Shown here one piece after another: positions 1-54,859 of a stretch of DNA of 64,000 nt. The stretch comes from Boswellia sacra. Its lineage: Eukaryota; Streptophyta; Magnoliopsida; Sapindales; Burseraceae. Position numbers and translations under genes: made by a program. Where the stretch lies: NCBI GenBank assembly GCA_013180625.2, contig SNVD02013970.1:1-64000 (forward strand), given 5' to 3'. The notes beneath the pieces were generated by a model. That model did not search any database and had not been told where the DNA came from. It was given only the letters and a program-made list of their open reading frames with translations. Within the stretch, counting starts at the first letter, position 1; every line of letters begins with the position of its first letter.

Positions 1-873
1 CCTAAGAGATTTCATCAGATTTGCTAAGTTTTTCATTTCCCTTTCATTTTCTGGAATTGCTATGTATTGTATTGTGTCTGAATATGTGTAACTAAATCTG
101 AATTGGTTGAGGGTGATTTCAAAGCCCTGATATGGTGTTTGTGAGTTGATTATGCAAGAAGTTATTATCCAATTCTCTAATTGAAGTTGCTTGTATTTTC
201 CCATGTTTAATGCTTATGATTGCTTGCTGGATTGTATTTGGGTGGCCAACTGAAATATAATATAATATTGTCTATTGCTAAGTTAGAAATCTTGATCCGT
301 AATTGTCTTGAATTTCTAATCATTAGTAGCAAATTGTGTCATAGTTACAATTGAGAATATAACCTAAGTTAAATAATCTGAGCTTGTGTGTTTATTGCTT
401 AGATCAACCTGTCTTTCTTTTCGTAATGCATTCAGTGAATTAAATTTAGAGAGCTTGTTCTAGGTTGTTTGATGGATAGAGATTAAATAAAGAGCCTGTT
501 TTATTTAACAACAAAGTAAGGAAAGATTGGGAAAACAGAGCTTATTGTTATCTACGGTTGATAATTTCAATGGTGTAATTGGATGATAATTCTACAATTA
601 ATTCGCAAATCCATATCTTGTGGTGGAGAATGATCCCTTAACCAGATTTTTATCATTAATTAATTCCCATTTCAATTAAGTTTGCATTGTGTTATTCATT
701 AATTACCGTTGTATTCAGTTTTTCATCTAGTTAATCAACCAACAAAACCCCCCATTTAGTTAATTGTTGCTGGAAATAACAAATTCAACTAGAATCAATC
801 CTCGTGGGAACGATATCTTACTATCACTTTATTACTTGTGCGACTAGTATACTTGCTAGTTTCGAACGCATCA
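1..873 (+). repeat. 5' LTR (partial, left end outside window)
   Basis: Aligns to 7811-8697 with a few substitutions in the second half and more divergence in the first 100 bases. It ends in GAACGCATCA, immediately before the primer binding site. By comparison with the right copy about 528 bases lie outside the window. Confidence 0.93.
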
Positions 874-879
874 AGTTTT

Positions 880-897
880 TGGCGCCGTTGCCGGGGA
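880..897 (+). promoter_or_regulatory. Primer binding site of the Athila-like element
   Basis: TGGCGCCGTTGCCGGGGA lies six bases after the LTR end. This is the standard PBS of plant Athila-type elements, usually assigned to tRNA-Asp. It primes minus-strand DNA synthesis. Confidence 0.85.
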
Positions 898-2135: not shown

Positions 2136-3057
2136 GTTAGATTTAGAAGCATTTATTAACATCATGCCATATTCTATTTATGCTTCTTTAAATCTTGAAC
2201 CTTTTGCGGAAACTGATATTACCATTCAACTTACCAAAAGTGTTGTGGAAGATGTGCTTGTGCAGGTGAATCAGATTGGTTGTTTTTCCAGCAGACTTCA
2301 AAATACATGTCCATTTACCAAAAAAATGAGGATGAGACATCTCCAACTAATCCAAAAAACACCGATTCTTTTAGGGAGGCCCATTCCCTCGAAATGCTAG
2401 AATCAGATTGATTTCATTATGGCAGTTCTTTACGCATAGATTTGATCGCAAGGTGATATGTGTTTATATTTTTGAGGAAACTGAGTACTCTAATGACTTA
2501 CTTTCTGTTTTTTTGTAAGTTGAACATTATTGTTATTTTGTTGCCACAACATTTTTTTTGAGTTAACTTCGCAAGAATGGAGTGGATTTGCTATGAGTGA
2601 CCCATCAGGATAGAAAGTTTCAAAGAACCAGAAAGCGATACAAGTGTCCAAAGAAGTGGAGGAAGCTGTGACAAGCTTGGATGAGACTAGAGCTATCACC
2701 ACAAATAGGTATGATGTTTCGGACATTGAATTGCCTTTATCTAATGAGAAACTTCTTCTTTTTGTGATGAAAGCCAATACCTTGGAGCTTAAGTCACTTC
2801 CAGATTATTTGAATCATGGATTCTTGGGTGAGAATGATACTTTGCGAGTTACAATGGAAATGGGCCTTGCACGAATACAAGAAGATAAACTCGTCCAAAT
2901 ACTTACAGATCACAAAATAGCTATTGAGTGGACAATTGTTGAAATCCAAGGCCCATCCATATGAATTGACCGTATCTTGTTAGAAGAGGGATCCAAGCCC
3001 ATTAGAGAAGTACAACGGAAATTGGATCCTCGCATGATGGAACCAACGTCGGGCTGA
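2028..3057 (+). pseudogene. Protease and N-terminal RT remnant of pol
   Basis: After the frameshift near 2027 the aspartic-protease region is readable up to about 2270. The active-site loop, normally D-x-G-A-S, reads LDLEAFI, so its Gly and Ser are lost and the enzyme should be dead. Stops follow. A second open piece (2644-2964) covers the segment before reverse transcriptase, with LELKSLPDYLNHGFLGEN and the DHKIAIEWTI block, then the start of RT (ILLEEGSKP, now preceded by a stop). Near 3050 the sequence jumps directly to the conserved post-pol motif (TTGGGAGGCAACC at 3077-3089). The whole RT catalytic core, RNase H and integrase are therefore absent. Confidence 0.8.
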
Positions 3058-3496
3058 GGACGTTAAACCAAGCGCTTATTGGGAGGCAACCAAATGTTTT
3101 TGAAAAAAAAAAAAGAAGAAAAGAAAAATAAAATGAGGTAATAATGATCGATTTTTGTGTCTCGAGGAGATTCCTTTCATAGGCAATCAAATTGATCAGG
3201 TTTTATCTCTCTTTGCCATCTGTCTCATTTGTTTTTATATTTTTTACTTGTTTTTGACTTTTGTTTGCTATTGTGTTGTTATCTCTTTTATGTGACTTTA
3301 GTTTCGTTTTTGCTCTTTTCTTTTCCTTTCTTTTGTTTAATTTGATTACTCTGTGCTTTGAGCTCATTTGTGCAGCAGCTTGTGGAAACATCCAAACGAA
3401 GTTGAAGTCATTCGCAAAAGGTTTGAAACGTGCATATCTTGGAGAAAAACAAACCCGATCGCATTATCGGTAATATCTCTTCTTTTCTCCTTTTCA
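3058..3496 (+). other. Post-pol junction and leader of the cargo region
   Basis: Contains the element-typical sequence around GCGCTTATTGGGAGGCAACC, a poly-A/purine stretch at 3102-3135 and a T-rich tract at 3200-3360. No coding signal of its own is convincing, although one frame is open from 3368 into the next ORF. Confidence 0.55.
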
Positions 3497-4022
3497 ATGG
3501 ATGCCGATATCTTTCTATCGAACCTTCGTAAATATTTTCCTTCACTTCCTCAAAATGCTGTGTTTAAAATTTATAAAGTACGGATGACTAGACTTTGGGC
3601 ATTGATGCTCCTAAATGTGCCTGATGATATCCGATGGCTTATCGAAGCCAAGGTGAGATTGTCCGGTGAGCCGGACATTAATCTCGCAAAATACATGCCT
3701 GGTCTAGGAAAGAGCTACTACGCCAAGAGGCGAAGAGCGAAAAAGGTTACAAGTATGTTATAAATGTGCTAGATGGAATTGTAACCAGACTTGTCGTTCA
3801 TTAGGTTTTGCGTCCAGGAATAGAGAAGATAAACGTTCATTTATTAGGAATGGTTTGAGTAATGAGTCGCTGGATAATGTTTTGTTAACTCTCGAGTCAC
3901 ATTCTTGTGGACTTGCTCAGCGTGAATTGCTTAATCTATGGACACAATTTCGTGATGAATTGCAGTGTTATGGTCTAGGGAATCTGACTAAAAACGACCC
4001 TGTTTGCCAGTTTATAAGATAA
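3497..4022 (+). pseudogene. Virus-like cysteine-rich nucleic-acid-binding protein gene, frameshifted
   Basis: An ORF opens at ATG 3497 and reads about 85 codons to a very basic stretch (YAKRRRAK, near 3718-3742), then ends at a TAA at 3761-3763. A second frame, overlapping from about 3753, continues open to TAA 4020-4022. It starts with closely spaced cysteines (CYKC, then two more Cys within nine residues). The two parts look like one gene broken by a one-base shift around 3741-3763. An arginine-rich block directly followed by a C-x2-C finger is the hallmark of the 3'-proximal nucleic-acid-binding proteins of carla- and vitiviruses (Pfam Viral_NABP type), some of which suppress RNA silencing. 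This one is longer than usual and unsupported by any search. It could instead be a retroelement-specific zinc-finger ORF. It lies in the sense strand between pol remnants and LOG. Confidence 0.48.
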
Positions 4023-4271
4023 CTGGATGGGAAGCAAATCTCCGACTCATAGAAGGCGTTTCAGCCGTTACTGGACGTAAAACCAGAGGAAAATGTGAGC
4101 CACAATCACAACTACTTTGTATATTTGAATGTGTGTTGTTATTGTCAAATTTTTTTTCTTGTTTCGTTTGATCTGATTATCAATGTTGTTTTTGTGTTGT
4201 TGTTGTTTGTTGTTTTGTTTGTTTAATTTCAAGTTTTCTTTTGACAAACCATATGACTACCCCATGTCATA

Positions 4272-4490
4272 AGCACACGTGGAGACGAGTGTGGAGGTTT
4301 TGTCAACCTCCGCCGAAAGTATATCTCTACTTTTCATGCTTCACGTGGGAGACAAGATGTGGCGGTTTTTTCAAACCCCACCGAAAGTTTATGTCTCCAT
4401 TTTTCATGCACACCTACGGTGGGAGAAAGGTGTGGAGGTTTGTCAAACCCCACCGAAAGCATATCTCTATTTTTCAAATCTCGGGGCGAT
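4272..4490 (+). repeat. Three tandem hairpin repeats upstream of LOG
   Basis: Three roughly 70-base units share a core GTGG-x-GGTTT / AACC-x-CC-x-CCGAAAG, starting at 4291, 4359 and 4432 (spacing 68 and 73). Each core is an inverted repeat able to form a short stem-loop (for example GGAGGTT/AACCTCC in unit 1 and GGTTT/AAACC in unit 3). Each is followed by a conserved GAAAG and a TATSTC...TTTTCA tail. Arm sequences differ between units while pairing is largely kept, which suggests structure matters. The block sits about 180 bases before the LOG start codon. Confidence 0.7.
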
Positions 4491-4667
4491 AAATCTGTGC
4501 ATCGAGAACCCCCACAAAATTATGTTCACCATGTGTCAATTGAGACTTTACGCGTGTATTATCCTTCTGTATATTTTCAAGGTAATTATATAAACCTGTC
4601 TTGCACTGAAAAGCATATTCACCTAATTTGCCATCATTGTCTTACACAAAGTTAGAGCATTTTAGAA

Positions 4668-5318
4668 ATGGAGAAAACACCAATTCGGCGATTCCAAAAT
4701 ATATGCGTATTTTGTGGATCGCAATTTGGTAAAGATGGAGAGTTTACAACAGCAGCTCTTGATCTTGGTAGGACATTAGCTGCGAGGGGTATTCATTTGA
4801 TTTATGGAGGGGGTAGTCTTGGGTTAATGGGGTGTGTGTCGACAGCTGCATCCTTAGGAGGAAGCAAAGTTCTCGGCATTATCCCTAAACCATTAGCTGT
4901 ACGAGATATCGTAGGCAACACAATCGGGGAAGAGTTACAGGTCTCTAGTATGCATGAGCGTATTGCACATATGGTTGTTAAGTCCGATGCATTTATAGCT
5001 TTGCCGGGTGGTTATGGTACATTAGAAGAGATATTTCAAATCACCTCTTGGGCACAGCTAAACATCCATAAAAAACCCATTGGTTTGTTAAATGTCAATA
5101 ACTTTTTTGATGGTTTGTTGTCTTTTCTTGATCAAGCTGTAGAAAAAAATTTTATCTTACCATCAGCGAGGCAAATCCTTGTTACAGCTTCAACGGCAGG
5201 GGAGTTAATTGACAAACTACAAGAATTCGTCTATTCGCCTAATCCAACAACAGCTCGGATTGATTGGTTTGGAGAAGGCAATAAGAGGCGTAAACTGGAT
5301 TTAACACTCCATCTGTAA
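4668..5318 (+). CDS. LOG: LONELY GUY cytokinin riboside 5'-monophosphate phosphoribohydrolase
   Basis: A 216-residue intact ORF, the usual length for plant LOG proteins. LOG enzymes cleave ribose 5-phosphate from cytokinin nucleotides in the cytosol and release active free-base cytokinin in one step. The Rossmann-like fold signature is present: N-terminal CVFCGS (13-18), YGGGSLGLMG (46-55), MHERIAHM (95-102) with the conserved Arg, and the diagnostic PGGYGTLEE (113-121) with the catalytic Glu. The family's usual MHxRKAxM reads MHERIAHM, so one Lys is Ile. Ordinary plant LOG genes have several introns; this one has none, so it probably came from a processed mRNA. It lies inside an LTR element, sense to its LTR promoter, downstream of a virus-like ORF. 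Being open while gag-pol is ruined suggests recent capture or selection. Confidence 0.95.
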   Translation: MEKTPIRRFQNICVFCGSQFGKDGEFTTAALDLGRTLAARGIHLIYGGGSLGLMGCVSTAASLGGSKVLGIIPKPLAVRDIVGNTIGEELQVSSMHERIAHMVVKSDAFIALPGGYGTLEEIFQITSWAQLNIHKKPIGLLNVNNFFDGLLSFLDQAVEKNFILPSARQILVTASTAGELIDKLQEFVYSPNPTTARIDWFGEGNKRRKLDLTLHL

Positions 5319-7282
5319 TCTCTATTTGCTGGTTTGCTTCGTTTTTGTTTGCTTTCTTTTTATTGTGTTTATTTGAAGTTTTTCATGTTATTTATTTTGA
5401 GATTTTTCAGGTTGTTTCTTTCCTCCCAGGTAATATTTTCTAATCTTGGTTTTAGAGTGGTGGCTTAAAAAGTTTAAGTCCTCTTGAAACGCATTATGGA
5501 TCTCTTTAATCTATAATGGCTGAATAAGGAGGCTAACTTCTAAACTTTTTAGACCCATTCTAACTGACTTGTTTTTGTTTGCTGGCTTGTTGGACTTTGT
5601 TATTTTATGAGTAAGTTTAGTTTTATGTAATTTAGAAGTTGTTATGTGTTTTTTGTCTTTATCAGTTTCGATTAAAAAAATTGTGGAAAAAGTTGAGAAT
5701 GGCAGAATATGGGGTTTTCTTTAACCCTTGAAACGCATTCTCTCGACATAAATCTGTAGTTTGTTTATTTCATGTTGTTTGAAGTGTCTTGTATCTTGTT
5801 TTGTTCTTTCATAATAAAGGTATATAGGCTGGAAACCTTAAGTCTGCGGGCTACTGGTCCTAAGGATTGTTGAAATATACAATCTTGACTCAGGTGTAAC
5901 AACGCCACGTACCTCTTTTCTTGCATTTTGTGGGTCGATGATAAGATAATGATTGAATTAAGAATAACTCTTGGAAAATGATAAATGATGCATGGATCTG
6001 TGTGCTTGAAATGTTTATTGGTTTTCGCTTTGCTTTTGATTCCTTGCGCAACATTGAGCACTGAGCTATTATCACTGAGTTATTTGTTCACTTAGAGAAA
6101 GTTTATGTAGTTTAAATGTTTCTTCAGATTTCAATGAATTCTAGAACTTGTTTGATGGTCACTCGAGGCGAAATCCTAGACTGTGCAACATTTGGGAAAT
6201 GATTTAGGCCATCTTTAGACCGTTTGAGCCTTAATAGCCAACATTGACTGAAATTGATCCCTAGTTACCCCTTTGAGCCTCTGTAAGCCTTTTTCTTTGT
6301 TAACTCACTAAAAGATTTCCTAACCTCAAATGAATTTGATCCAAACAGATTATCCCTTACCTATGAGCATGTAGATCATTCACAATTAAATTTTGAGCTA
6401 TGTTCTGGTTTTGGGAAGTTAGAGGAGGTTGGGATGTGTCATGAGCAATGCAAGTGAGTTCTATTGTGTTTGAAAAAAAAAAAGAAAAAAAAAGCTAATC
6501 TGTACTTATCGTCCACGTACTTACACATTGAGGACAATGTGTTGTTTAAGTGTGGGGGAGGGGAAGTGTAATAAAAAAAATAAAAAAAGAAAAAAAAAGA
6601 ACAAAAGAAAAAGAATAAGAGATCTATACCCTTAAGTATTCTTAAAAAGAATGAAACAACAAAGTGTGGGGGTGTAGTTTTCTTTTGTTTCTGCAAAAAA
6701 AAAAAAAAAGATTGAGTGTTCTAAATAAGTTTGGGGGAGTAACCTGGTGAATTGAAATGAAGTTGTGTTATAGGGTTGAGCTCTACATAGTCTTGAATGA
6801 TTTATGTGTTTTTGGGTGATTTGAGCCAAATTATTATCCTTTATCATACCTTCACCCAAGCCAAACGTTACAAGCTTAATAAAGTCCTACTTGATCCTTT
6901 GTGTTGTGCATGTCTACATTAGTGGAGAGTGACTTGAAAAGCAGGCCTATGGAGTTCATTTATACACACATCTTCATTATTAAATATGATTCATTTTTAT
7001 GCATAAACTCATCCGGGTTACAAGTGATTAGGTGAGAATGGCTCTACACACACACACTTGAGGAATTGAAGTGAAGCGAAACTAATCTTTGAGATAAAAT
7101 TCTTGATCAAGTGCATTATTTTGAAGTTTTCCTTGGGTTATAATTAAGTACAATCTTTGAGGCCTATTTGCAAGTTGAAGCATTTGTGTGTTTTAATTTT
7201 TCTTTGATTCTGTTTCGGTTTAGTTTTGTTTCATATCGTTGTACTTGCTCGAGGACTAGCAAAGTTTAAGTGTGGGGGAATT
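5319..7282 (+). other. Non-coding 3' region of the Athila-like element
   Basis: No convincing ORF. It holds typical 3' sequence of such elements, including poly-A runs near 6470-6610 and 6695-6710. There are four purine tracts of the type AAGTGTGGGGGA (6547-6565, 6661-6673, 6727-6739, 7267-7280). The last is immediately before the 3' LTR and is the functional polypurine tract candidate. Confidence 0.7.
7267..7282 (+). promoter_or_regulatory. Polypurine tract
   Basis: TAAGTGTGGGGGAATT directly precedes the TG that opens the right LTR. It primes plus-strand DNA synthesis. Confidence 0.75.
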
Positions 7283-8697
7283 TGATAGGTGTCTAATTAT
7301 ATATCATTTTCATATCAATTCGTCCATGTTTCTTTGCTATATTCCTTGGTATTTTTATGTTTTTGTGTGGTTTTGATATTTGTAGGAGTTTTGGAGCAAC
7401 TTGCACAAAAATGGAGTAAAACCCTTCATTTTCACCTCTGCTAGTCAGTGATCTTCTCGGATTTAATTGTATTGATATACAATGAACCCGATGACATATT
7501 ATATACCGTTGGAAAGCTCTCGAAGTCTATTTTCTGGAGAAATTTACGGTTTATAATCCATTCAGTGTACCAAAAGTTGTAATCAAAACAGTGTGAGATG
7601 TATAGAAATATAATTCCACAAGCACTGTAGCATGTATAATACGGGGCACTGTAGCAAGTCACTGTAGCAGAGTATTTAAACACATTTTAGGGTTTTATTT
7701 TGAGAACTTGAGGAGGGGAGAACGTGGTGGAGGCTTCAGCTCTGGAATTCTTTCATCTCTTGGAGTTCTTGAAGGAGAAAGGAAGCTTGGAAAGAGGAAG
7801 AACTACAATCCAAAGAGAATTACATCAAATTTGCTAAGTTTTTCCCTTCCCTTTCATTTCTGGAATGTCTCCATGTTGTATTGTATTTACCACGTTCTTA
7901 AACATGTGTAACTGAATCTGAATTGGTTGAGGGTGATTTCAAAGCCCCTGATATGGTTTTTGTAAATTGATTGTGTAAGGAATTGTTATCCAATTCTCTA
8001 ATTGAAGTTGCTTGTATTCTCCCATATTTAATGCTTATGATTGCTTGCTGATTGTATTTGAGTGGCCAACTGAATATAATCTGGTTGTGATTTATTGCTA
8101 GACTAGAAATCTTGATCCGTAATTGTCTTGAATTTCTAATCATTAGTAGCAAAATTGTGATCAGAGATTGCAATTGGAGAATATAACCTAAGTTAAATAA
8201 TCCGAGCTTGTGTGTTTATTGCTTAGATCAACCTATCTTTCTTATCGTAATGCATCCATTGAATTAAATTTAGAGAGCTTGTTCTAGGTTGTTTAATGGA
8301 TAGAGATTAAATAAAGAGCCTGTTTTATTTAACAACAAAGTAAGGAAAGATTGGGATAACAGAGCTTATTGTTATCTACGGTTGATAATTTCAATGGTGT
8401 AATTGGATGATAATTCTACAATTAATTCGCAAATCCATATCTTGTGGTGGAGAATGATCCCTTGACCAGATTTCTATCATTGATTAATTCCCATTTCAAT
8501 TAAGTTTGCATTGTGTTATTCATTAATTACCGTTGTATTCAGTTTTTCATCTAGTTAATCAACCAACAAAACCCCCCATTTAGTTAATTGTTGCTGGAAA
8601 TAACAAATTCAACTAGAATCAATCCTCGTGGGAACGATATCTTACTATCACTTTATTACTTGTGCGACTAGTATACTTGCTAGTTTCGAACGCATCA
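7283..8697 (+). repeat. 3' LTR (1415 bp)
   Basis: Starts TGATAGGTGTC and ends GAACGCATCA, with the terminal TG...CA of LTRs. Its last 887 bases align with window positions 1-873. U3 carries three CACTGTAGCA repeats and a TATA-like TATTTAAA just before the region shared with mRNA. The base after 8697 belongs to a MULE transposase reading frame. Confidence 0.93.
7623..7680 (+). promoter_or_regulatory. LTR core promoter with triple CACTGTAGCA box
   Basis: CACTGTAGCA occurs at 7623, 7647 and 7660, followed by GTATTTAAA at 7672. This is a plausible U3 enhancer/TATA arrangement that would drive element RNA, and thereby the LOG cargo in a full copy. Confidence 0.5.
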
Positions 8698-9492
8698 CCA
8701 CCATATAAAAGACAACTAGGCAGACCAAAGGGTGCTAGGAGGAGAGAACCAGATGAGCAACCCAAGATGAAAAAGTCATATACAAAGATTTGTAAAACAT
8801 GTGGAGTAATGGGGCATAATAAAAGGACCTGTAAAGCTGCAACAACAACTAGAAGCTCCACTGCCTCAATGGTATACTACTTTTCCACTGCCTTAATGTT
8901 TAAAATTTTATTATCTTATACATTATTGTCTAATCTCTAATTCAGTGCAATTATTTTTCAGAGAACAACTATTGTGATAAGAGGTGCTACAACTGAAGCA
9001 AGGGTGTCACAACTAGAAGCTCCACTGCCTCAATGGTATACTACTTATCCACTGCCTTAATGTTTAAAATTTTATTATCTTATACATTATTGTCTAATCT
9101 CTAATTCAGTGAAATTATTTTTTAGAGAGCGAATACTGTTATAAGAGGTGCTACAACTGAAGCAAGGGGTGTCACAGCTACTGTTAAGGGTCCTACACCT
9201 ACTGGAAGGGGTTTCATAGCTGCTGGGAGGGATACTACATCTGCTAGGAAGAGAGGGAGACCACCTGAGAGGGGATTTACATCTCCTCAAAGAGGAGTTG
9301 GAACTACATGGAGAGGATCTCCTTTTGGTAATCTCAATGTGAGTATTATCTTTCTTTATCTCTTTAATCTTGAAAGCTAGAATCTATTTGTTTGGAGTCA
9401 ATTACAAATTCTGTTTCTAAATAATTTTTTTAATACTGGCATTATAGATTGGTTCCAATTCTGGAAGGGCTGCAAGTTCATCTAAACCATGA
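8698..9492 (+). pseudogene. C-terminal tail of MURA transposase (5'-truncated by LTR insertion)
   Basis: The frame enters directly from the LTR end. It reads a basic GRPKGARRRE block and a zinc knuckle (CKTCGVMGHNKRTC), which follow the SWIM domain in MULE transposases. GT-AG introns are visible at 8872-8961, 9036-9125 and 9339-9447. A 164-base tandem duplication (8846-9009 / 9010-9175) has copied the exon end with its intron. Using the duplicated exon produces a stop; splicing 8871 to 9126 restores a frame. That frame runs through a Gly/Arg/Thr-rich tail to the last exon 9448-9492, ending in TGA. The DDE domain and SWIM finger are on the other side of the retrotransposon. Confidence 0.8.
8846..9175 (+). 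repeat. Tandem duplication of an exon-intron-exon segment
   Basis: Copies begin at 8846 and 9010 (period 164). Each has the same exon end, a 90-base intron and the start of the next exon; they differ by few bases. Confidence 0.88.
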
Positions 9493-47200: not shown

Positions 47201-50200
47201 GCTATCTTTATTCCCAAGTTCTTCTTTCTAGGAATGAGCTCGAGCCATATAACTTCCCTATAAATAAGTTTTGTAAGCTATTCTTTAGATATAAGAATCA
47301 ATTAAAAGAAATTTCAACATCATTATTAAGGGTTTTATATAAACCAACTGAAGATAACCATTTTTTATCAGTTTTCATACTGTAGTCTTGAATATTGCTC
47401 AAATGTCCAATTCTAAATATGGTACCTACCCTTAACTTCACTTATCAAGCCTTGATCCAACATCAAAGCAAAGTAAATACAGCTTCCAAATCTCAAAAAG
47501 CATATCAACGTCATAAAACCGAAAAAGAACTTATCAAGAGGTTCATATAAAAAAATAAAAAAATAAAAAATATAAGAACTTTCCAAAGGACAATCTAAAA
47601 ATTTTAAGAAACTTTTCTAGATGAAAAAATTTAGCCCTAAATTAATGCTAAAAGATTTTTATTTTTCAAATAAAAATATCAATTGAGAGAGCATAGTAAC
47701 TCTTAAATTGACCACAACTCATCTCTTTTCTTAAAAGTATATTCAAAATTCTTAAACAAGACTTACCACCTTCATTAGTAGTAAAACACACTCTTGTTCT
47801 TTTCATAAGATGCAAAATATTTTTTTAAAAAAAGTAAAATTATTTAAAAAGAGGTCTTCATTTTAAAATTTTATTTACTGGCAATACAAATAATCCAATA
47901 AATAAATACCCTGTGTCAGTGTCTTCTTCCACTTTTATTAGTGCCTCTTTTAGGTTATGAATGTGGATTTCTTATGTAGCTTACCCTGATAAGCAGCATT
48001 TTTTTATCAACTGTTAAAAATACGATTGTAATACCAACTAACCAGTGTATCAATTAATGAAGGTTTTCTTATTCCCAGCTTTAATTCTAGGACTTTCATT
48101 CCAGATCGTTCGGTAGTTTAACATTAGTAAAATGTTACTTTAGTTATTCTCTTCCGTGTTCTCTTGAAAAGTTAGAGTAACTTGGCCTCCACATAGGACC
48201 TAATGTTGACTGAAATAACTTTTTGCCAAAATATACACTGTATAAACCGTTCATTGACAGTGCTGCATAAAAAGATTAACTAGAAGTATTTTAAAAGTTT
48301 AGAAATGGTCAATAAAAAATAAAAAAGTAATGCCTACCAAGAATAAAGAGAATAGGATTTCCAAATTCAAAAAAAGCACTAATTCATCATCTAACAAATA
48401 ATATTACTATTCCAGAGAGCAGCAACAGCATATATTCCTGAAAAATTACTATGTTAATTTCCAATTTTAAAACCTCCAGACCAAGTTGCATAGCACTTGA
48501 GGACTAATTACAGCTTTTCAGATTGTAATTAGATTAGCTATAGAATCAATATTGAAACAGTTAATTTAAAAATTTACGAAAAGAATCAACAATATAAGAA
48601 ATAAAAACACACCTCGAGGTTGAGGCAACTCAAGTGGTATGAAGAAGGGCAGTGCGAACAATGAATTAGGTCACCCCCATGGTGGCAAACACTACATATT
48701 GTGTCCTTTAATTGAAAATCATGACATCCTTGCTTCCTCTTACGCTTTCTAGAATGAGACACCAAATCTTTAGGCCTAAGATTTTTCCCATATTTCTCAA
48801 ACTGCCGAGATGGACGGCAGTGATTAGAAAACGAATCCTCTTCTTTTTGTACAGCATACAGTCTCTGCTCTTCTACCTTAGGTGATGGCTTTAGTTTTAA
48901 ATTGACTTGTCGACATTTCTTTGAATTCTTCTGTTTCAGTAGTGAAGATTTCCTACGCTCCTGAACAATAACAAGTGACGCCTTCCTCTCCCTCTGCTTC
49001 TCCCAAAAATTATTAAACACCAAAGCAACTTTATTGTTAACATTTCTCTTAGTCAAATTTCTTCGTCGTTTAACTGATTGATTAATTTGAAAATTATGCA
49101 CACCAAGAGCTCCAATTTTCTCCTCTTTCAATATATCTACAAGGATCTTATTTTGCTCACCTTCACACCCTGTGAGAGAGTGAAGCTTTTCTACTTCAGA
49201 TTCTGCCCTATCTGGCTTCTTTTGTGTGGAATAAGAAACACAATTTAGTACTTTATTGAAACCTGAACTACTGTTGGCAATTTGATGAGATTCACCTTTG
49301 CGAACAGTATTATTCTCTATGAATGAAGCAGATGTCATTTGCATTTCCCTGCACAGATTATTAGCCTTTAAACCATTCCGATCAGCGGTATTTACTACAG
49401 ATGGTTCCTTGTATCCAGAACTTGAATTTGGTGACTGCTGCTTGTTGCATTCACCATTACGAGCATTTTCTCCTTGTTTTTGTCTAGATCTGGTAACCCT
49501 GAATTCAATTTGATTTCTTACCTTAATAAGAGAATCACATATATGAGAATTCAACTTGACAAGCTGAGAACCGTTCGATTTAATTGCTTTCTTTCCCACT
49601 TTATTTGCTACAATTTTGTGATTTCTTACCTGAACAAGAGGGTCACAAAGATTTGAACTTGGTGACTGCTGCTTGTTGCATTCACCATAAGGAGCATTTT
49701 CTCCTTGTTTTTGCCTAGATCTGGTAACCCTGAATTCAATTTGATTTCTTACCTTAATAAGAGAATCACATGTACAAGAATTCAACATGACACGCTGAGA
49801 ATCCTTCGATTTAACTGCTTTCTTTCCCACTTTTGCCACAATTTTCTGATTTCTTACCTGAGCAAGAGGGTCAAAAAGATTCGAATTCACCTTAGCACGT
49901 TCAGAACCCTTCAATTTATTTCCTTTCATTTTAATAATATATGACAGGATTTTGTAATAACCGAGATCCCGCCTACTTGATTTAGCGGCAATTTCATAAA
50001 CAACATCCATGAAGTATTTTCTCCACACAGAACGACCACCACAAGGCCACTCCGAAATCATCTTAGTGAACCCATAATTCAACCGCAAGGTGGACCAAAC
50101 CTTCTTTATGAAACTAGATAATGGAAAATGTCCACAAAGATCCCTAGCCAACTGGACCAACATCCAAACTCCCCGTTGTCTCCAGACACCCATAAACTCA

Positions 50201-50955
50201 TCCCACTCTTGAGCCACACGTAAGCAACTCACACTAAACTTCCGATAATCATTCTCATCAGGAAAAAACACATAACGCTCCTCTGCATCAGTGTTACAAT
50301 CAAAAACAATACCTTCCCACCAAGCATCCTCAAACAAAACATCAACACAAACCCCAAAACCCAACTTCTTACTAGAATCAACCTTCAATAATGGAGGTGG
50401 GGGACGAATACGTCCACGATAAGTTGAGGAAACATGCCGCCTAAGGTGGCGGCCTTCGATTGCCTCTGTAACCGGAATGGACTCAACTAGCTTCAACTCA
50501 CCATATTCACACAACAGCTCATCATACTCAACCCTGCGGCATAAGTCTGAAACTCCAACAACCACGCCAGGGTGCCATGACCCCCTCAACCCTTCCTCAA
50601 ATTGCCGCACCTAAACCAATTATACACACATTCAACTCAGTGACTACAAGCCGAGATGCTTTTCACTCAATATAACAACAAATTCAAACAACCCGAGCAA
50701 CTGAATAATAAAAATTCACCATAATCTCAACTCGATTAACTCAATCAAACTGAAACCCATTAAACAACATGATCACTAAGCAATATTAAAGGCAACACAA
50801 AACAATTCAACAATGTCTTCCAAATGCGAACAATACCACTTCAAATAAACACAAATTTTAATTTTTTAAAAAATTAACAAAAAATTAATAAAATTAAACG
50901 GAGGAATTGAAATTACCTCGACCCGTTCGTGAAGGAGAAGCTTTCTCTGGTTCAT
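38204..50955 (-). CDS. IDM1-like protein: Agenet domain, PHD fingers and GNAT acetyltransferase
   Basis: Exons (minus): 50955-50917, 50610-48613, 45646-45529, 45449-45364, 45054-44822, 39555-39469, 39360-39261, 39136-38935, 38834-38783, 38411-38204. All junctions are GT-AG and every phase agrees, giving 1040 residues. N-terminal Agenet/Tudor-like region (about 1-170) with GSWHPGVVVGV and WWEGIVFDCN. A lysine-rich middle with a 77-residue tandem repeat. PHD finger at 651-695 (CSVC, CSHC, YHLSC, WFCPSC). A second cysteine cluster (ALCGFRDF...YHMTCL...FCSEACF) to about 747. GNAT domain 840-940 with YRRQGMC acetyl-CoA motif and LVLPSI...NTWEASFGF. Related plant proteins read histone marks and acetylate histone H3 in the nucleus, protecting loci from DNA methylation. 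The last two exons are least certain: without splicing at 38934 the protein stops at 38897. Confidence 0.88.
40950..42600 (-). pseudogene. Copia pol fragment in the intron
   Basis: Minus-strand islands: the connector CVFLGYGEEKNSLKVFDP with its following HVFF (about 42490-42380), then RT pieces (WLKPLHGLKLDSW, about 41260; FVYIDDIVIIWN, about 41120), where YIDD replaces the catalytic YVDD. Stops and frameshifts throughout. Confidence 0.62.
42990..43390 (-). pseudogene. LINE reverse transcriptase fragment in the intron
   Basis: WPLKYIGLPLGDNPK and the following VVKVER block match the C-terminal RT region of plant L1-type LINEs (PLKYLGLPLG...). The rest is degenerate. Confidence 0.65.
45647..48612 (-). 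other. 3.0-kb intron of the IDM1-like gene
   Basis: Non-coding; splits the PHD finger between CLNLE and DIPGGKW. A poly-A tract lies at 46902-46920. No mobile element could be identified. Confidence 0.7.
49431..49892 (-). repeat. 231-bp tandem duplication inside exon 2
   Basis: Copies 49431-49661 and 49662-49892. Each encodes 77 residues: (V/I)RN(Q/H)KIVA, VGKKAxKS, then DSLIKVRNQIEFRVTRSR and GECNKQQSP. The frame is preserved and the sequence is nearly identical. Confidence 0.9.
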
Positions 50956-52414: not shown

Positions 52415-54859
52415 ATGGATAATGTTCGTTTTCCTATTGTGTATGATGGTGAATGGGTGTCAAGTGGCAAAGAATTTTTTTCAATGGTCGTAGAAGCAAA
52501 GGTGTGACTTTGCCTATGTCAACAACCTATGAAGAGTTAGTTCGTAAAGTTTCTGAAGTAACAAATAAATCATTAGAGGAAAACACATTTTCATTGCAAT
52601 ATATGTTAAGGGCACATATTCCACTTCCTCCATCAATAGTAGAAAGTGATGATGATTTGAAATATTTCTTAGAAAAAAACCTCAATGTGGACTCTTCAAA
52701 TAGGATCCCCTTATATGCAATTGTTGAACCCCGTTCACATGAAATTGAAATTGATATTGAAAATGGTATAGGTTCGAGGGAGAGTAGTAACCAATTTCTT
52801 ACCAGTGTTCCCTTAACATACCCAGAAGAACGTTATCATGCAATTCCTTCCACTATTAATGAAGATGATGTGCTGGAAGAACCATTAGTTAATACTGATC
52901 TCGATCCTAGTCACATGAATGATTTACAGAATTTTGATCATGTCCAATCACCAGAATCGCGTTCATGTGACATTTCTCAATCTAATCGTGAAGTTTTTTT
53001 CCTAGAGGTAATGAGTTTTCAACTAATCATGATCTGGGGAGTAATTCAAATTCATTTGCCACTTCTAATGTTAGGTCATCATCTAAACTTTCCGATAGTA
53101 ACACCGATGTATATGTAAGCACTGTGTTCAAGAATAAGAAGGATTTGCAAAACAAGATTAGCATTTTAGCAGTAAAAAGGAACTTTCAGTTTAGGGTAAA
53201 AAAGTCCAGCAAAACCCTTTACAAGATAGCATGTATAGATGAATTGTGCAAGTGGCGACTTCGTGCCATGAAAATCAAGAATTGTGATCTTTTTAAGGTG
53301 ACAAAGTTTTGTGACATACATACATGTGCTCTTAACAATCTTGAGCGAGATCATCGTCAAGCTACATCAAAGTTAATTGCTATGGATATTCATGAGAAGT
53401 ACAATGATGTTAGAGTGACTTATAGGCCTAATGATATTAGACATGATGTAGCAAAAAATTTTGGAATTCATATTTCTTATGGAAAGACATGGCAAGCGCG
53501 GGAGCATGCGTTAGAGTTGGTTCGGGGTTCACCAGAAGATTCATTCAGGTTAATGCCAAGATACTGTCATACTTTAGAGAAGCATAATCACGGCACTATC
53601 ACTCATATACATACTGATCCACATGACCATTTCTTATATATTTTTTTTTTGCCTTGGGTGCTTCCATACGTGCCTTTAGAACTTGTATAAGGCCCGTTGT
53701 TGCTGTAGAGGGGACCTTTTTGAAGGGCAAATATAGAGGCACCCTGCTTGTGGCCGCATGCATGGATGGTAACAATCAAATTTATCCTTTGGCGTTTGGC
53801 GTTGTCGACTCCGAGAATGATGCATTGTGGGAATGGTTTTTAACAAAATTGAAAGATGCTATTGGTTCTGTTGAAGATCTTGTGATAATCTCTGATCGTC
53901 ATAAAAGCATAGGCAAGAGGGTGGGTAAAGTGTTTCCTGATGCTCAACATGGTGCCTGTGTGTATCATATTTCACAAAATCTTAAGGTCAAATTCAAAGA
54001 TGTGGTTATAAGTGATATCTTCTTTACAGCCAACAAAGTTTATCGTCAATGTGAGTTTGAGGACCTAATGCGACAAATTAATAGAATCGACCACCGTATT
54101 GCACAATATCTACACGAAGCTGGGTATGCAAAGTGGGCTCGTTCGCATTTTGATGGTAGAAGGTATAGTATTTTGACAACCAATATTGCAAAGTGCCTGA
54201 ATGGTGTTCTTAAGGAAGCACGAGAGTTTCCCATTATGAAGCTAGTGGATCATATTATATCAAAGGTGTTGCAAAAATGGTTTTGTACACGTAGGGAGGA
54301 GGCAATTAACATGACAACTCCCTTGACAACATGGGCTTAAAAACAGTTGAAGAATAGGCATGAGGAAGGCTTTTCTTATAGAGTTGTTCCAATTAGCCTA
54401 CACGAATATACTGTTAAAGATGGATATTTAGATGGTCATGTAGACTTGCATGCAAGAACATGTAGCTGCCGAGAATTCCAAGTTGAACAGTTACCATGCA
54501 AACACGTTATTGTAGTGTGTAGAGTTCGTAACTTATTAGTCTACAATTTTACTCATCATTTTTATAAGTCCGAAGTCCTATTGACTGCATATGCGAAGGC
54601 TATCTTTCCTGTTGGTTCATCTGAGGAGTGGGATATTCCAAATGAAGTTGAGGCACGTATAATATTAGCCCCCGCGAAATGTTGCGGACAGGGTAGGCAA
54701 AAGAAGAATCGAATTCCATCGTTGGGTGAAGAAAAGAAATCACGTAAATGTGGGAGGTGTGGTGGCAGGAGTCATAATCGAAAGACATGCCGGTCGATGA
54801 ATCTGCTGTCAACCCAAATAAATCAGGAGGCTCCATTAAATGATACCGGTGGGGAGTAA
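52415..54859 (+). pseudogene. MURA transposase, frameshifted and nonsense-mutated
   Basis: ATG 52415 follows a TTACAG acceptor. In order: a PB1-like N-terminus (VYDGEW; GRRSKGVTLP), an acidic linker, the MuDR DNA-binding domain (VFKNKKDLQNKIS, CKWRLRA, HTC; 53110-53340), the MULE DDE domain (53650-54100; GKYRGTLLVAACMDGNNQIY, SDRH), the SWIM finger (CSCREF...CKH, 54463-54510) and a terminal zinc knuckle (CGRCGGRSHNRKTC). Frame changes occur at three T-runs (near 52481, 52994 and 53641), and one in-frame TAA sits at 54338-54340. The first catalytic residue, normally Asp in VDGT, is Glu (GAG at 53708). The protein would cut at TIRs in the nucleus; this copy is probably inactive unless the T-run shifts are sequencing errors. 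Confidence 0.9.

Follow-up and report, generated by a model that had tools for sequence, protein, structure and literature searches.

A LOG-family gene was found inside an LTR retrotransposon at the beginning of the window, the whole stretch of 64,000 nucleotides from Boswellia sacra (contig SNVD02013970.1) that was analyzed. The element has no recognizable pol core, and the LOG within it is a member of a separate clade among plant LOG-like proteins. The results are best explained overall by an LTR-element LOG gene of this clade that is kept by selection, has a remodeled pocket and a repressor-like tail, and would act in the nucleus, an explanation that we consider probable.

The retrotransposon and its LOG gene

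The 1415-bp 3' LTR (7283-8697, + strand) is bounded by TG...CA, and its segment 7810-8697 matches positions 1-873 (+) with 92.7% identity over 892 columns. The latter positions are the 3' part of the 5' LTR, through which the window edge cuts, and both the 5' end of the element and the target-site duplication lie beyond the window. A PBS-like sequence, TGGCGCCGTTGCCGGGGA, which we take to be a primer binding site of the tRNA-Asp type, was located at 880-897 (+), and a purine-rich polypurine tract, GTGTGGGGGAATT, adjoins the 3' LTR at 7270-7282 (+). The LTR pair, PBS and polypurine tract that surround the LOG are those of an LTR retrotransposon. Decayed pieces resembling the gag C-terminus and protease in three frames (1080-2397, +), and pieces resembling the RT N-terminus with an in-frame stop (2614-3054, +), were assigned by visual inspection of the frame translations; the longest open piece of the element is gag-like (1232-2137, 302 codons) and longer than the LOG. 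No pol core or RT core was recognized in the frame translations or in Pfam scans of element pieces, and the Pfam scan of 2614-2961 gave no match. The LOG alone reached the Pfam cutoff among the element pieces scanned, the best other match being DUF5091 at 1080-1292 (E 0.0025, 18.5 bits, cutoff 27). From its motifs and PBS the element may be Ty3/gypsy and Athila-like, and it is probably a decayed, non-autonomous copy. The LOG lies in the same sense as the element, with the decayed gag/pol-like pieces before it and the 3' LTR behind it, as the sequence-only reading had it, although the term pol remnants was generous for short protease-like and RT-N-terminal-like pieces named by eye.

Self-comparison within the window revealed no match of more than 80 columns involving the element besides the LTRs and the repeats at 4276-4476. 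Two adjoining pieces in different frames at 3362-4019 (+) showed weak sub-cutoff matches to viral nucleic-acid-binding proteins; when the pieces were searched separately, consecutive frames of 3362-3869 (+) matched Carla_C4 PF01623 (E 0.014-0.03) and Viral_NABP PF05515 (E 0.006-0.008), all below cutoff. This region is possibly a frameshifted ORF of a viral zinc-finger type upstream of the LOG, and a scan of viral contigs with the second of the two 3362-3869 pieces found no relative. Directly after the 3' LTR, a coding-like sequence resembling by eye the C-terminus of a MULE-type transposase is present at 8698-8940 (+), into which the element may have inserted. A second ORF set of this MULE-like appearance is located at 52453-54859. 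For an ORF of host type at 48586-50610 (-), the best matches came from Mangifera (72% identity over 48%) and from Pistacia (59% over 100%), which by themselves would place the plant probably in the Sapindales.

The LOG ORF (4668-5318, +) is intact and intronless, encoding 216 aa from the ATG at 4668 to the TAA at 5318 with no stop and no frameshift. The protein matched Pfam Lysine_decarbox PF03641 (E 1.5e-38, 132.3 bits, cutoff 27) and NCBIfam TIGR00730 (174.8 bits, cutoff 96.35). The NCBIfam LOG equivalog model has a cutoff of 300 bits, below which both the window LOG (115.6) and the canonical P0121 (132.4) fell. The closest solved structure was At2g37210/2a33 (AtLOG3; E 2.6e-67). An AlphaFold2 model built with a 28-row alignment had a mean pLDDT of 88.9, and a Foldseek search with the model against the PDB returned 2a33 as the top match (rmsd 0.7 over 178 columns, 56% identity); the top match of a BFVD fold search was a cyanophage LOG with 24% identity. 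The motifs GGGSLGLMG and PGGYGTLEE occupy residues 47-55 and 113-121, and the catalytic Arg and Glu are R98 and E121 (R99 and E122 of CgLOG, in which numbering is one higher than in the window protein used here). The fold, PGGxGTxxE and the catalytic residues identify the protein as a member of the LOG family with a likeness far beyond chance, confirming the full-length LOG with these motifs that had been read from the sequence at 4668-5318.

An alignment of the two LTRs showed 69 differences over 871 sites and 6 gap events (K2P 0.084), which at usual substitution rates would correspond to an insertion ~3 to 17 million years old. A neutral simulation of the decay of the LOG ORF, calibrated on LTR-derived rates, predicted 27 substitutions and 2.2 indels since insertion, with a probability of 0.37 for no nonsense change with the start kept, 0.11 for no indel and ~0.04 for both combined. 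The earlier argument that the LOG has stayed open while gag and pol decayed is weak, since a neutral P of ~0.04 is suggestive only as evidence for selection and the decay of gag and pol may predate the insertion.

Expression of the LOG via an internal promoter or splicing is a plausible, unproven prediction. A candidate TATA box, TATATAAA, lies at 4587-4594 (+) with no ATG from there to the LOG start; TATAWAW was found in 19% of shuffles and TATATAAA alone is not significant. Between the PBS and the LOG are 90 ATGs, and the LOG start has the context GAAATGG. Splice acceptors were sought as CAG or TAG preceded by a pyrimidine-rich 22-mer; the scan gave two candidates, at 979 and 1846, neither of them near the LOG. 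A short way upstream of the LOG are three diverged units of ~70 bp that can form hairpins (4276-4476, +), and the fold z-score of 4270-4500 was -3.44 with 0 of 200 shuffles equally stable. Strongly T-rich tracts (56-60% T) precede the gag-like region, the 3362 region and the LOG, and another follows closely on the LOG (900-985, 3190-3376, 4100-4235 and 5319-5440, +), a composition of 56% T being reached by ~0.2% of 136-nt windows. The tracts might be leader or splice-related sequences.

Relatives and origin of the gene

A protein search with the window LOG gave 7727 hits at 1e-20 among 7999 scored candidates, the best 120 of which were listed and examined; a second search with AtLOG3 as the query listed 120 canonical LOG1/3-type proteins for comparison. 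Organism names accompanied 42 of the best 120 of 7727 rows: Reevesia (17), Diplodiscus (8), Xanthoceras (8, from several assemblies), Populus (6) and one each from Pterospermum, Melia and Rehmannia, the single Pterospermum row representing 327 sequences. Proteins from metagenome contigs also belonged to the group. The named relatives among these 120 fall in the Malvaceae, Sapindaceae, Meliaceae and Orobanchaceae, and Populus belongs to the Salicaceae. The nearest relative among the best 120 of 7727 was 73% identical to the window LOG over its full length, whereas identity to four plant LOGs was 48-53%.

A rooted tree was constructed from 52 rows comprising 25 clade rows (the window LOG and 24 relatives), 9 canonical LOGs and 18 bacterial LOGs, the last obtained from 20 of 80 fetched loci that were tried after excluding two with a stop in the translation. 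The window LOG and the 24 chosen relatives formed one clade (100/98) with the 9 canonical LOGs separate (99/99), and the clade grouped with the plant LOGs (99/95) with the 18 bacterial LOGs outside. A quick tree of 92 rows, containing 74 rows that remained after 114 of the 120 relatives were thinned, 15 of the 120 canonical proteins, AtLOG8, the P. aeruginosa LOG and the window LOG, agreed on the window clade (SH-aLRT 94). The clade may have sprung from inside the LOG1/3 side or the LOG8 side, nesting beside LOG1/3 (p-AU 0.188) and beside LOG8 (p-AU 0.221) both being compatible with the data. A bacterial origin has no support given the grouping with plant LOGs apart from the 18 bacterial ones, and scans of viral contigs, for which the alignment of LOGs and two pieces of the element served as queries, revealed no relative.

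The sequence-only reading had proposed a processed copy of a host LOG carried as cargo. Its premise that host LOG genes have several introns stands, the genes of peanut having mostly 7 exons and 6 introns according to passages of PMC13257298, in contrast to the intronless window LOG; the gene is likewise an intact cargo of an LTR element. It is, however, probably not a copy of this host's LOG: the 48-53% identity to the four plant LOGs, as against 73% to the nearest listed relative, and the separate clade argue against a recent retrocopy, and the capture is therefore old.

Other clade members also appear to reside in LTR elements, judging from copy number, the published Citrus and Populus cases and a Xanthoceras LOG gene model (P0001) within which a stretch resembles the gag-like 1232-2137 (42 columns, 40% identity, E 0.002). 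P0001 is the sole relative among the best 120 of 7727 with such a hint of element context and has no tail of the kind described below; the element context of tailed relatives is based on copy number and the published Populus report. At the level of the clade, the LOG would be an element gene under purifying selection and no fresh host retrocopy. The clade as a whole gives stronger evidence for this than the openness of the window copy, for which the neutral P of ~0.04 is suggestive only.

Substrate pocket and C-terminal tail

In CgLOG, passages of PMC4979012 place Lys100 in both the adenine and the prenyl site and Glu125 in the latter, a site that was inferred with no substrate seen, and report that alanine changes of AMP-binding residues nearly abolished activity. 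Three of the five residues of the proposed prenyl pocket (Met, His, Lys, Glu and Trp; PMC4979012) are kept in the window LOG as Met95, His96 and Trp128, whereas the Lys and Glu are replaced by I99 and Q124. Among the best 120 of 7727 relatives, R98 was conserved in 113, T118 in 118, E120 in 117, E121 in 115 and W128 in 119. Site 99 of the same 120 was occupied by Lys (13), I (42), L (35), M (29) or H (1), site 124 by Glu (12), Q (54), H (47) or others (7), and site 96 by His in 56. The 120 listed canonical LOGs, in contrast, had H, R, K, T, E, E, E and W at these eight sites without exception. The window protein very likely still handles a nucleotide, judging from these residues, although its base preference cannot be assumed.

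The C-terminus, as translated, is a tail of sequence KRRK-LDLTLHL (5283-5315, +), composed of a basic patch and an EAR-like LxLxL. Residues 210-216 of the window LOG, LDLTLHL, contain the LxLxL sequence that characterizes EAR-motif proteins, and the tail lies in a stretch of low model confidence in which the C-terminal blocks had pLDDT values of 53-56. LxLxL was found in the last 14 residues of 94 of the best 120 of 7727 relatives, rows that are the most similar to the tailed query and favour tailed proteins, and in 0 of the 120 listed canonical LOGs, which are chiefly of the LOG1/3 type; it arose in 12% of shuffles of the last 14 residues. LxLxL and, in the last 20 residues, a cluster of basic residues were both present in 90 of the best 120 of 7727 and 0 of the 120 canonical proteins; the mean net charge of the last 20 residues was +2.4 in the listed relatives and -1.1 in the canonical proteins. 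The motif was within 3 residues of the C-terminus in all 94 of the best 120 of 7727 rows that bear it. By source, LxLxL was carried by 27 of the 42 organism-named rows and 67 of the 78 others, and by 0 of the 8 from Xanthoceras (best 120 of 7727). The strict tail motif was absent from 26 of these 120, of which 11 were of the canonical-pocket type and the others were short, truncated or had I or F replacing one L. A loose tail pattern was passed by 68 of the 74 thinned rows, in which Leu was found at -5 in 68/68, at -3 in 64/68 and at -1 in 67/68, counts somewhat inflated since the pattern asks for hydrophobic residues. Conservation at these positions approximated that of active-site columns, and positions -2 and -4 were among the more variable columns of the 68 rows.

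Rows that branch first retain the canonical pocket but lack the tail, their C-termini reading RRRLD or KKRRLA, and P0036 combines the canonical pocket with the tail. This distribution suggests an order in which capture was followed by the basic tail, then LxLxL and then the pocket change; alternatively, the tail may have been lost in the first branch.

The EAR consensus is LxLxL (PMC9956375), and such motifs recruit TOPLESS corepressors (PMC9956375, PMC7446885). The passages concerned in PMC7446885 describe recruitment of TPL by the C-terminal LxLxL of the oomycete effector HaRxL21 and also indicate that LxLxL alone is insufficient, ten other effectors with the motif having failed to bind TPL.

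Possible roles and comparison with known systems

An element protein that acts in the nucleus would fit the tail and the altered pocket. In the likeliest mechanism, which we offer tentatively and hold to be somewhat short of probable, the window protein, which retains the LOG fold, PGGxGTxxE and the catalytic Arg/Glu, would be a nucleotide phosphoribohydrolase with a changed preference for substrates. It would enter the nucleus, dock by its tail on a TOPLESS-type corepressor and thereby change the expression of host genes to the advantage of the element. The fuller proposal, that a captured hormone enzyme has become a nuclear effector of the element that recruits TOPLESS via its EAR tail and perhaps damps the silencing or hormone responses restraining the element, is speculative and we hold it to be doubtful. 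The tail might instead serve the element itself in particle assembly, RNA binding or packaging, or stability, a possible though not a likely role with which its basic charge, its low model confidence and the failure of some LxLxL motifs to bind TPL (PMC7446885) agree, whereas fixed Leu residues alternating with variable ones fit a short docking motif.

The sequence-only reading suggested that the element raises cytokinin. That the LOG frees active cytokinin from nucleotides, promoting division or meristem fate where the element is expressed, is rather unlikely in our estimation. The fold is closest to AtLOG3, the catalytic Arg/Glu, PGGxGTxxE, Met95, His96 and Trp128 are retained, and the first-branching clade members keep the whole pocket; against this, the pocket Lys and Glu are replaced in the window LOG and in 107 and 108, respectively, of the best 120 of 7727 relatives, and His96 in 64 of them, at positions where the CgLOG counterparts are proposed to bind adenine or prenyl and in an enzyme nearly inactivated by alanine changes of AMP-binding residues (PMC4979012). 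The gain in cytokinin is thus doubtful, because two of the five proposed prenyl-pocket residues differ, the Lys and Glu are mostly replaced and an EAR-like tail is present among the listed relatives. Carriage of the LOG as a neutral passenger, with the window copy open by youth or luck, is improbable: the simulated chance of staying open is small and not negligible, yet across deep branches the columns of the motifs and the leucines of the tail rank with the best-conserved ones and have variable neighbors, and conservation of columns in the clade correlates with that in canonical LOGs (rho 0.49, 178 columns), a point weakened by protein databases that list open ORFs only and hide broken copies. 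The selection-kept element gene with a remodeled pocket and repressor-like tail is the explanation that we prefer.

That a LOG can be cargo of an LTR element is already known. PMC9289625, with credit to Steinbauerova et al. 2011, reports a YgdH/LOG domain in consensus sequences of LTR elements from Citrus sinensis, C. clementina and Populus trichocarpa, and it is the sole such report found in the literature on LOG in elements. Those elements likewise have a LOG-family additional domain in plant Ty3/gypsy elements and the Populus proteins share the window clade; the passages concerned describe the domain alone, with no mention of the tail or pocket change. The canonical AtLOG3 (At2g37210) and AtLOG8 (At5g11950) have in common with the window LOG the fold, PGGxGTxxE and catalytic Arg/Glu, whereas the window protein is 48-56% identical to canonical plant LOGs and differs in two pocket residues and the basic LxLxL tail. 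Passages of PMC9289625 describe a further plant LTR element in which an enzyme domain of host type has become fixed, the Ty3/gypsy elements of orchids with an m6A-demethylase domain, an enzyme unrelated to LOG. A C-terminal LxLxL in a protein of a plant parasite is likewise seen in HaRxL21 and other EAR-bearing effectors; HaRxL21 is a secreted oomycete protein for which TPL binding was shown (PMC7446885), whereas the window LOG is a candidate for such binding.

Extra ORFs whose purpose is unknown are common in plant LTR elements (PMC7264820). The one described here encodes a protein whose enzyme fold is known, whose catalytic residues are intact and which ends in a short tail, so that what the element gains from the captured gene becomes directly testable. 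Where 'LOGL' gene models occur in many copies, as in some tree genomes, they may be genes of elements rather than hormone genes.
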